Part shown: one piece after another, positions 2,401-5,188 of the stretch
Numbering within the stretch: position 1 is the first letter of the stretch
Layout of the letters: each line of letters opens with the position of its first letter
Origin: an uncultured SAR116 cluster alpha proteobacterium
GTDB taxonomy: Bacteria > Pseudomonadota > Alphaproteobacteria > Puniceispirillales > Marisalimonadaceae
Assembly: GCA_902589185.1 (NCBI GenBank)
Contig: CACIRZ010000009.1
Location: 1-43,813 of the forward strand
DNA: 43,813 nucleotides
Reading direction: 5' to 3'
The notes under the pieces: generated by a model
The model's input: only the letters and a program-made list of their open reading frames with translations
Database searches by the model: none
Told to the model about the DNA's origin: nothing
Program-made: the position numbers and the translations under genes

Positions 2401-3633
2401 TTAGTCTAAGACATTATCCTTTCTCATTATATAATCTGAAATTTGTTGGGACGTAAATGCGCTAAGTGTCCATCCTAGGTGCCCATGTCCAGTATTGTAA
2501 AATACGCCAGGTAATTTTCCACTTCCAACTTTTGGTACCATACTTGGTGTCATAGGCCTTAACCCAGTCCATGGAATAGCGTGTTCAGTCGATACTTTTG
2601 GAAAAAGCTCGTTACACCATTTAATAAGAGGATTAATTCTGTCAGCTCTTATGTCTTTATTATAACCATTAAACTCAGCAGTACCTGCAACTCTAAATCT
2701 ATTTTTTCCTAATCTACTAGAAACAATTTTAGCTTTATCATCTAGTAAAGACACATAAGGAGCATTTCTTATGCTTTCTTTATCGTCAAGTAATATTGTG
2801 ATCGAATACCCTTTAACAGGATATATATTGATTTTGTCACCTAAGTTATTAGCTATAAATTTACTGTTAACACCAGCACAAACTACAATTCCGTCGAAAT
2901 TTTGTTTATGAATTTCATTTGATTGACTAAAGGAAAGTATTGGTTGTTTCTTGTCATGATTGACTTTAACAATTTCTGTTTCGTAAAAGAATTTTACACC
3001 TTTTTTTTCACAAGCATCAGCAAGCAATTTTGTAAATTTATGAATATCACCTGACATATCACTTTTTGTATAAAATCCTCCAATAAAATTCTTAAGATTT
3101 AAAGTTGGTTCAATAGATAACATCTCATCTTTAGATATTTCTTTTCTATCTAATCCTGCTTCTAAAAGCCATTTATTAACCTCTCTACCATGTTTTAATG
3201 AAGCATCACACTCACATAAATGCATGATACCTTTCTCTTCAAGATCTAGTTCAATATTTTCTTTTTTTAGAATTCTTTTAAATTCATCTCTACTATTGAT
3301 AGCCATTTTAGCTGTTAAAATTGTATTTTTTTTGTGGTTTGGAATATTACTTATAAAATCTATTATCCAGCTAATTTTATGAAAGCTTAGCTTAGGACTG
3401 AATAGCAATGGAGCATCTTTTTTTAACATCCATTGAATACCTTTAACGATTGTAGACCAACTATTCCATACTTCAGCGTTGCAAGCAGATAGTTGGCCTC
3501 CATTTGCAAAACTTGTTTCCATAGCTGCATAACGGTTTTTATCAAAAACAGATACAGTATAACCTCTTTCTAAAAGTTGGTAAGCAGTAGTTATCCCAGT
3601 TATACCTGCTCCTATTATTGCAATATTTTTCAT
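2401..3633 (-). CDS. dadA: DadA-type FAD-dependent D-amino acid (or glycine) dehydrogenase
   Basis: Membrane-associated flavoprotein family that oxidatively deaminates amino acids to 2-oxo acids, classically D-alanine to pyruvate with electrons passed to the respiratory chain. The protein has 410 residues, close to DadA length. It begins with the Rossmann dinucleotide fold IAIIGAGITGITTAYQL (residues 4-20), has the DadA-like SFANGGQLSACNAEVW near 41-56, and ends with WTGLRPMTPSMVPKVG and NTGHGHLGWTLS, the FAD-closing segment. The start ATG at 3633 has a GGAG six bases upstream. The gene is preceded by a tandem glycine riboswitch (3677-3839), so glycine or a metabolite linked to it is a plausible inducer or substrate. 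Family membership is clear. The true substrate (D-alanine, other D-amino acids, glycine, sarcosine) cannot be read from the sequence. Confidence 0.88.
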   Translation of the reverse strand: MKNIAIIGAGITGITTAYQLLERGYTVSVFDKNRYAAMETSFANGGQLSACNAEVWNSWSTIVKGIQWMLKKDAPLLFSPKLSFHKISWIIDFISNIPNHKKNTILTAKMAINSRDEFKRILKKENIELDLEEKGIMHLCECDASLKHGREVNKWLLEAGLDRKEISKDEMLSIEPTLNLKNFIGGFYTKSDMSGDIHKFTKLLADACEKKGVKFFYETEIVKVNHDKKQPILSFSQSNEIHKQNFDGIVVCAGVNSKFIANNLGDKINIYPVKGYSITILLDDKESIRNAPYVSLLDDKAKIVSSRLGKNRFRVAGTAEFNGYNKDIRADRINPLIKWCNELFPKVSTEHAIPWTGLRPMTPSMVPKVGSGKLPGVFYNTGHGHLGWTLSAFTSQQISDYIMRKDNVLD

Positions 3634-3640
3634 AATAAAC

Positions 3641-3688
3641 TCCGTGACAAAGATTTTTTAAATTAAATATTACCCCATCTGTCACGGA
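3641..3688 (-). promoter_or_regulatory. Putative expression platform: SD-sequestering helix of the glycine riboswitch
   Basis: A perfect 9-bp inverted repeat, TCCGTGACA (3688-3680) and TGTCACGGA (3649-3641, minus-strand reading), spans the end of aptamer 2 and the ribosome binding site. The downstream arm contains GGA of the Shine-Dalgarno GGAG (3643-3640), six bases before the ATG at 3633. The upstream arm uses the conserved strand after CAGG and two bases of the aptamer 2 P1 helix. No U-tract follows, so control is probably translational. The expected logic is that glycine binding fixes aptamer 2, the helix cannot form, and translation is ON. That logic is inference from base pairing. Confidence 0.75.
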
Positions 3689-3839
3689 ACCTGAAAGATT
3701 GACCAAAAATGGCTTACCCCTTCGGTGGATGATAAAATCATCACTCTCCAGATTATCAACTTTTTATGTTTCGGGTGCCTGAGAGTTTCCGGGGTGGTTG
3801 CTCCTTCGGCGGTTATACATAACTCTCTCACACAAAAAG
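3677..3839 (-). promoter_or_regulatory. Tandem (two-aptamer) glycine riboswitch
   Basis: Both aptamers read on the minus strand, 5' of the dadA-like gene. Aptamer 1 (3839-3760) has a 10-bp P1 made by 3839-3830 pairing with 3769-3760 (one G-U), GAGAG paired with CTCTC, and the conserved blocks GCCGAAGGAGCAA and AACTCTCAGGCA. Aptamer 2 (about 3753-3677) has P1 ATCTG (3753-3749) pairing with CAGAT (3681-3677), GAGAG paired with CTTTC, a GATGA/TCATC hairpin, and the blocks CACCGAAGGGGTAA and TCTTTCAGG. These match the glycine riboswitch family almost base for base. A short linker joins the two units, as in cooperative tandem switches. Confidence 0.95.
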
Positions 3840-3894
3840 ACTTTGATTAATAAAGATTAACAATATTTTAAAATAAATCAACACTATAGAATTT

Positions 3895-4755
3895 TTACAT
3901 TTTTATCTTAATTTTTGATACCATAAAAACCCCAAGACAAGAAAGAAACAAACCCAACAAGTCAAAAGAACTGAATGTGTCTTCTAATATTAAAAAAGCA
4001 AGTAAAGCTGATATAGGAGGTACTAAAAAAAATAAAGTAGATGTTTCATTTGCTTTATTCTTCGCTATTAACCACATCAAAATTAAAAATGCACCAAGTG
4101 AAACAGCAAATATTTGCCATGACATAGCCAAAATAAAATCATTTGAAAAATTTATAAAAAATTTTTCAAAGCAAAGCGCTAATAAAAGATGAAAAATTGC
4201 GGCGCTTAATGCTTGCAAAAAATTATTTCCAGATAAAGACAAATCAGACCCTATTTTTTTCTGCCAGATAATACCTAGTGAAGAAGAAACTAGTCCAACT
4301 ATTCCAGCCAAAATGGCAACTATGGTTAGCCCATCAATAAGATCAGAAATTATAATTATCAAAGAACCACTAAATCCTAAAATAATTCCAAGCCACTGAA
4401 ATTTAGTTAAAGTTTCATTCAAATAAATTTTTGCTAGAAATGATGTTAAAATAGGTTGAAATGATACTATTAACGCTATAAGGGTAGCTGATATACCTCT
4501 AGATAAAGCAAAAAAAACTCCACCCAAATATAAGCCATGAAATAATAATCCGCTAATAGATGCATTTTTGAAAGCCTTAAAAGAAATATATTTGTCTTTT
4601 GAAAAAAAAATGAAAAACAGGAAAAATAAGAAGGCAACTATCCCAAATCTTATTGAAAGCGACAGAAAGGGTGGGGCATTATCAACTATTATTTTGCTAG
4701 TAATAAATGCTGAAGACCAAAGTATAACAAAAATTATTGGTATTATATTGTAAAT
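3895..4755 (-). CDS. EamA/DMT-family membrane transporter with no canonical start codon
   Basis: Ten-helix drug/metabolite transporter superfamily protein of the inner membrane; the substrate is unknown. The frame is open from a TAG at about 4770-4768 down to the stop at 3895. The first recognisable EamA segment, FVILWSSAFITSK followed by NAPPFLSLSIRFG, lies upstream of the first TTG at 4527. A start at that TTG would give only 210 residues and delete the first helices. No ATG, GTG or TTG is in frame before the conserved N-terminus. I set the start at an ATT (4755-4753) eight bases after an AGAAAG, giving 286 residues, the normal family length. A nearby ATT or ATA, or a sequence error, is also possible. 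The second EamA repeat carries GFSGSLIIIISD and ends near VPPISALLAFLILEDTFS. Confidence 0.75.
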   Translation of the reverse strand: MYNIIPIIFVILWSSAFITSKIIVDNAPPFLSLSIRFGIVAFLFFLFFIFFSKDKYISFKAFKNASISGLLFHGLYLGGVFFALSRGISATLIALIVSFQPILTSFLAKIYLNETLTKFQWLGIILGFSGSLIIIISDLIDGLTIVAILAGIVGLVSSSLGIIWQKKIGSDLSLSGNNFLQALSAAIFHLLLALCFEKFFINFSNDFILAMSWQIFAVSLGAFLILMWLIAKNKANETSTLFFLVPPISALLAFLILEDTFSSFDLLGLFLSCLGVFMVSKIKIKM

Positions 4756-4792
4756 ATTAATAACTTTCTAATTTGAAAACAATTATAATAAA

Positions 4793-5188
4793 TTATCTTG
4801 GTTTTTCAATTGGTCCTTTTTTTTCTAACCATTTATTAAAACCGCCAACTAGATGAGAGGTGTTTAAAAGCCCAATTTCCATTGCTGAAAGTGTGGCGAG
4901 TGCCGATCTCCAGTCAGATTGACAATAAAAAATGAAATGATAATTATCATTAAAAAACTGTTTATGATATGGGCTCTCAGGATCTATCCAAAACTCTAAC
5001 ATACATCTTGGAACATGTTTTGCTCCAAGTATGCGTCCAGATTTTTGGATTTCTCTTATATCCCTTACGTCAATGAATAAGTTGGTTTTGTTGGAATGCA
5101 TTTTAATAGCATCCCCTACTTCTAAATTATTTATTTGTTTCTTAGCACTTTCTACAAGTTTCATAACTGAGGTTTTTATTTTAATCAT
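4793..5188 (-). CDS. Single-domain rhodanese-like protein
   Basis: Small cytoplasmic protein (131 residues) with one rhodanese domain; the family moves sulfane sulfur via a cysteine persulfide. Visible features are the LFIDVRDIREIQKSGRILGA segment (residues 37-56) with the conserved Asp-Val-Arg, and the active loop CQSDWRS with the catalytic cysteine at 89 and Arg 94. VGGFNKWLEKKGPI closes the fold near the C-terminus. It resembles the short GlpE/YgaP-like rhodaneses. The start ATG at 5188 has an AAGAAAG-type ribosome site upstream. It lies on the same strand as the renalase-like gene (37 bases away) and upstream of the EamA gene, so the three may be co-transcribed. The acceptor is unknown. 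Confidence 0.88.
   Translation of the reverse strand: MIKIKTSVMKLVESAKKQINNLEVGDAIKMHSNKTNLFIDVRDIREIQKSGRILGAKHVPRCMLEFWIDPESPYHKQFFNDNYHFIFYCQSDWRSALATLSAMEIGLLNTSHLVGGFNKWLEKKGPIEKPR

Follow-up and report, generated by a model that had tools for sequence, protein, structure and literature searches.

Which process does a glycine riboswitch serve when it stands before a lone flavoenzyme gene? The question is raised by the window analysed here, a stretch of 43,813 nucleotides (30% G+C) from an uncultured SAR116 alphaproteobacterium. A first-pass annotation had described a tandem glycine riboswitch over 3641-3840, placed directly upstream of a DadA-type FAD gene and not of a glycine cleavage operon, and had suggested that the enzyme disposes of glycine to glyoxylate or of a D-amino acid that tracks glycine.

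The tandem riboswitch and the gene that follows it

The riboswitch was borne out by the Infernal search that the annotation had proposed as a check: both aptamers exceed the RF00504 gathering score of 32 bits (Table 1), aptamer 1 in the window-wide cmscan, where it was the sole aptamer listed, and aptamer 2 in a single-family RF00504 search of the genome. The two adjacent aptamers share one expression platform, which continues to the ATG at 3633; the annotated span is therefore a fair outline, to which the strand (minus, for riboswitch and gene alike) is added here. The last base of aptamer 2 lies 35 nt from the start of the gene. The window's genome (a MAG of 1.47 Mb, 62% completeness) gave no RF00504 match other than these two. 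The glycine-GGAnGA variant (RF03166), scanned over 3600-3900, was rejected, the whole tandem reaching 66.3 bits against a cut-off of 110. Judged by its sequence, the leader RNA would bind glycine, and its control of the FAD gene is near certain. The riboswitch is ordinary as an RNA; the gene that it controls is not. The upstream neighbour, on the same strand, is an EamA-type transporter gene open over 3895-4527 only (210 aa); since the same frame has two stops in 3895-4797, this gene may be frameshifted or truncated.

Table 1 Features of the riboswitch-flavoenzyme locus (positions in the window).
Feature	Position	Strand	Basis
Glycine aptamer 1	3757-3842	minus	RF00504, 60.1 bits, E 4.2e-10, cut-off 32
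Glycine aptamer 2	3669-3761	minus	RF00504, 56.8 bits, cut-off 32
P1 of aptamer 2, 5' strand (AUCUG)	3749-3753	minus	Complementary to 3681-3677
P1 of aptamer 2, 3' strand (CAGAU), also in the sequestor helix	3677-3681	minus	Complementary to 3753-3749
Helix covering the ribosome-binding site, 5' arm	3677-3688	minus	Minimum-energy fold; compensatory changes in family leaders
Same helix, 3' arm, overlapping the Shine-Dalgarno	3641-3654	minus	Fold and family leaders
Shine-Dalgarno GGAG	3640-3643	minus	Placement 6 nt upstream of the ATG
Gene for a PRK12409 FAD amino-acid dehydrogenase, proposed to act on glycine	2401-3633	minus	NF009074, 632.6 bits, cut-off 494; Pfam DAO PF01266, 213.8 bits

The gene (ATG start, 410 aa) scores above the curated cut-off of the NCBIfam family PRK12409 (NF009074, named 'D-amino acid dehydrogenase') and below those of DadA proper (NF001933, 318.1 bits, cut-off 383) and of the ThiO glycine oxidase (TIGR02352, 133.6 bits, cut-off 250.8). 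The annotated arrangement, a tandem riboswitch followed by a lone DadA-like FAD gene instead of gcv genes, was confirmed, and the identity of the enzyme is refined: on these scores, it is placed in PRK12409, a sister family of DadA, and is not DadA itself. Its nearest solved relatives by sequence are glycine oxidases, and the solved fold nearest to the structure model (mean pLDDT 93.1, built on 44 relatives) is the glycine oxidase 4ysh, followed by sarcosine oxidase beta. The fold group also includes sarcosine oxidase, dimethylglycine dehydrogenase and iminodiacetate oxidase; the substrate is not fixed by the modelled fold alone. Of 80 named PRK12409 loci, 79 have the motif GHGHLGW and one has a broken frame; the 24 DadA-type loci have mostly GHGTLGW (GHGHLGW in one, L051).

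In the minimum-energy fold of the leader, the segment 3688-3677, which lies in the core of aptamer 2 and supplies the 3' strand of its P1, pairs with 3654-3641, and three of the four Shine-Dalgarno bases are paired. Since P1 of aptamer 2 and this sequestor share 3681-3677, only one of them can form. Compensatory changes occur in the sequestor within the family (CCGUGACA/UGUCACGG in the window versus CCAUGACAG/CUGUCAUGG in L015); L010 and L027 show weak pairing, and when only family leaders are compared, the mean for own halves (-16.8 kcal/mol) is close to that for swapped halves (-15.1 kcal/mol). A broader set, mostly of named alpha-, beta- and gammaproteobacteria, comprised 85 leaders, 82 of them distinct; the motif rule used for it excluded 18 leaders of the family, which belong to the separate family comparison, and three named loci without riboswitch. 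Own halves gave -10.6 kcal/mol in these 82 leaders versus -8.9 kcal/mol for swapped halves, a difference that none of 20,000 permutations (uncorrected for relatedness) equalled. In 57 of the 82, own halves paired better than the swapped median; two or more of the four Shine-Dalgarno-like bases lie within the helix in 54 only. A transcription terminator was also considered, and no terminator-like site was found within 3600-4100. The leader has the layout of a translational ON switch, a direction that we infer from this layout, because the ribosome-binding site was still covered when P1 was forced in the folding.

Conservation of the riboswitch-PRK12409 pair

PRK12409 was found in 53 of the 58 genomes of the window's family (52 above the cut-off, plus one truncated at the edge of a contig), and the riboswitch lies directly upstream of all 53 genes, with two aptamers in 52 genomes and the remaining one cut by a contig end. 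No aptamer was located away from PRK12409 in this family, the five genomes without the gene being also without the riboswitch. Among named genomes (the best 80 of 585 confirmed relatives, of which 79 were scanned, L092 being left out) an adjacent riboswitch was present in 76 (47/49, 17/17 and 12/13) and absent from three (L079, L107, L138). All 16 scanned plasmid copies have it; the plasmids were 17 hand-picked for genus spread among 30 matches listed of 64 records (L163 was omitted from the scan for its size), and they include three from Aminobacter with an identical gene string. Five of the 289 genomes in the class sample reach the PRK12409 cut-off. The riboswitch precedes the gene in the window's genome and in G274, G350 and G060 (L040, L041, L042), and is missing in two deeper rows of this sample, G290 (L044, above the cut-off) and G136 (L045, below the PRK12409 cut-off).

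The 24 DadA-type loci are all without a glycine riboswitch. On a quickly built tree of 114 proteins (39 of its 111 inner branches are starred, and L072 was excluded for its broken frame), the riboswitch label needs three changes versus a shuffled mean of 26.0; riboswitch presence tracks the enzyme clade and is absent from the DadA-type sisters in the class sample. The other neighbours of PRK12409 vary: no general operon partner emerged from 75 named loci, in which a same-strand downstream gene within 60 nt was found 16 times and the largest cluster of related genes comprised 4 loci downstream and 7 upstream, all these counts being lower bounds owing to a crude open-frame caller. The pairing of the switch with PRK12409 is widespread, not local. 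As the pair recurs in the family, in named relatives and on plasmids, riboswitch and PRK12409 behave as one unit; and its recurrence in many bacteria makes glycine breakdown the probable role of the enzyme, the riboswitch pointing to glycine as its likely substrate.

Glycine cleavage and glyoxylate genes

GcvP above the cut-off was found in none of the 58 genomes of the window's family (one stray match, 17.6 bits); in the order-level sample it was present in 36 of 111 genomes, none of them from this family. GcvT above the cut-off was equally absent from the 58 genomes. Sub-cut-off GcvT matches occur in 55 of them; the best, from G030, reaches 233.2 bits against 235.85 and lies in a frame of 794 aa, and further weak ones lie in frames of about 370, 300 or 1000 aa; these frame sizes suggest demethylases, YgfZ-like proteins and dimethylglycine-dehydrogenase-like proteins. 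Order relatives (L003, L031) have a glycine riboswitch before gcvT, and another (G060) has GcvP, yet its only riboswitch precedes PRK12409. PYLIS_3, the pyrrolysine insertion element of mttB, was matched in four order relatives (L003, L004, L005, L007) within a long open frame, about 740 nt upstream of the glycine riboswitch that precedes gcvT.

Malate synthase is encoded in 42 of the 58 family genomes. Isocitrate lyase above the cut-off was found in none of the 58 (37 have weak matches of 52-68 bits, most of them from frames close to 300 aa), and glyoxylate must therefore come from elsewhere; glycine could be one source and glycolate another. Matches to glcD occur in 55 of the 58, all below the cut-off. 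The family genomes are mostly incomplete; the absences of GcvP, GcvT and isocitrate lyase also hold in the six best (at least 90% complete). Many genomes of the family carry two adjacent glcD-like flavoprotein genes (for example G008 C8:24752-27423; about 340-350 bits, under the glcD cut-off), possibly encoding a glycolate or lactate dehydrogenase. Malate synthase of the window's genome (G000) was matched as two pieces in different frames of one contig (C55, 401-1089), perhaps through an assembly error.

Malate synthase also lies beside PRK12409. The order riboswitch, PRK12409, malate synthase G was found on three Aminobacter plasmids and one Mesorhizobium loti plasmid, with gaps of 18-36 nt; malate synthase is in or near 6 of 97 PRK12409 loci, and in Ahrensia (L096) it is upstream of PRK12409. 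These neighbours are the most direct hint that the product of the enzyme is glyoxylate. RidA-type genes are near three of the 97 loci, and alanine racemase occurs in a single case, two genes downstream on a plasmid (L150). On Sinorhizobium meliloti pSymA (L151, 4231-5130), pieces of malate synthase lie just downstream of riboswitch and PRK12409 in a region with no annotated gene; they look like the remains of the gene string seen in Aminobacter and Mesorhizobium.

Proposed function and comparison with known systems

The best explanation of these data, and a probable one, is a translational ON glycine riboswitch that controls a PRK12409 glycine dehydrogenase making glyoxylate, in replacement of a lost glycine cleavage system. 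Without glycine, 3688-3677 would pair with 3654-3641 and hide the ribosome-binding site; with glycine, aptamer 2 would retain 3688-3677 as part of its core and P1, leaving the site accessible. The flavoenzyme would oxidise glycine to glyoxylate and ammonia, the electrons most likely being passed to the respiratory chain, as DadA passes them, and malate synthase G would consume the glyoxylate. Both the switching direction and the electron acceptor are putative, and in the window's family this route from glycine to glyoxylate may stand in place of the lost glycine cleavage system. The comparative data favour the earlier suggestion of glycine disposal to glyoxylate (no GcvP above the cut-off in the family, malate synthase in the absence of isocitrate lyase above the cut-off, gene strings with malate synthase G); the counter-evidence includes the NCBIfam name, the alanine racemase of L150, the five loci without riboswitch (L079, L107, L138, L044, L045), the GcvT match of G030 just short of the cut-off and glycolate as another possible source of glyoxylate, and, for the switching mechanism, the P1-forced fold, the weak pairing of L010 and L027 and the limited coverage of Shine-Dalgarno-like bases. 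We also lean towards a wider proposal, in which PRK12409 is a glycine dehydrogenase and the riboswitch travels along with it as a two-part glycine-disposal cassette, replacing the glycine cleavage system in one bacterial family and leading from glycine through glyoxylate to malate. If this is true, the assigned function of an enzyme family common in many proteobacterial genomes and plasmids is corrected, a route from glycine to malate under direct glycine control is added, and the way in which a bacterial lineage lives without the glycine cleavage system is explained.

Three other explanations were weighed. The enzyme might be a true D-amino acid dehydrogenase, acting on D-alanine or D-serine, with glycine serving only as a stand-in for a surplus of amino acids or for stress on the cell wall; the name of NF009074, the score to DadA and the racemase gene of L150 agree with this, but a riboswitch found at nearly every scanned PRK12409 locus and at no DadA-type locus, together with alanine racemase near one locus versus malate synthase near six, makes it unlikely. 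The substrate might instead be an N-substituted glycine such as sarcosine or iminodiacetate, with glycine as product or by-product, which would suit the fold common to sarcosine oxidase, dimethylglycine dehydrogenase and iminodiacetate oxidase. We consider this quite improbable: a product-driven ON switch would be unusual, the malate synthase neighbours point to glyoxylate, and in the class sample the riboswitch marks the PRK12409 clade and not its DadA-type sisters.

The remaining alternative concerns the direction of the switch. Glycine riboswitches of both the ON and the OFF type have been described, and uptake genes are thought to be turned down by them (PMC6944388); the P1-forced fold, which did not free the ribosome-binding site, would also be compatible with an OFF switch. 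Such a switch is very improbable here, as the sequestor and P1 of aptamer 2 exclude each other through their common segment, the region is devoid of terminator-like sites and induction is expected for a catabolic gene.

A glycine oxidation as proposed for PRK12409 has an enzymatic precedent in ThiO, which converts glycine to glyoxylate. Glycine oxidases are the best solved matches to the PRK12409 enzyme in sequence and fold, but its score is below the ThiO cut-off. In Bacillota, PMC12452182 names thiO among the genes with tandem TPP riboswitches. A glycine riboswitch paired with a DadA-like gene was not found in searches of open full texts, which covered their listings and selected main-text passages; an earlier notice is possible, and the twelve glycine-metabolism orthologues of Additional file 5 of PMC3766115 may include the PRK12409 gene. 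DadA (PRK00711, NF001933) is the sister family, from which the window's gene differs by its sub-cut-off score and by the glycine riboswitch, lacking at the 24 DadA-type loci; the named PRK12409 loci further differ by GHGHLGW in place of the mostly GHGTLGW motif. The gcvT-linked tandem glycine riboswitch (RF00504), found in the order relatives L003 and L031, has the same aptamer family and tandem layout; that of the window, in contrast, is followed by the gene of a PRK12409 flavoenzyme, and GcvP above the cut-off is absent from the family. In SAR11, a glycine riboswitch precedes the malate synthase gene glcB (PMC2211319, PMC5069720), and this arrangement likewise ties the glycine level to glyoxylate use. 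The regulated gene in SAR11 is malate synthase, whereas the switch of the window precedes the gene of a flavoenzyme that may be the source of the glyoxylate; on four plasmids the two genes directly follow each other.
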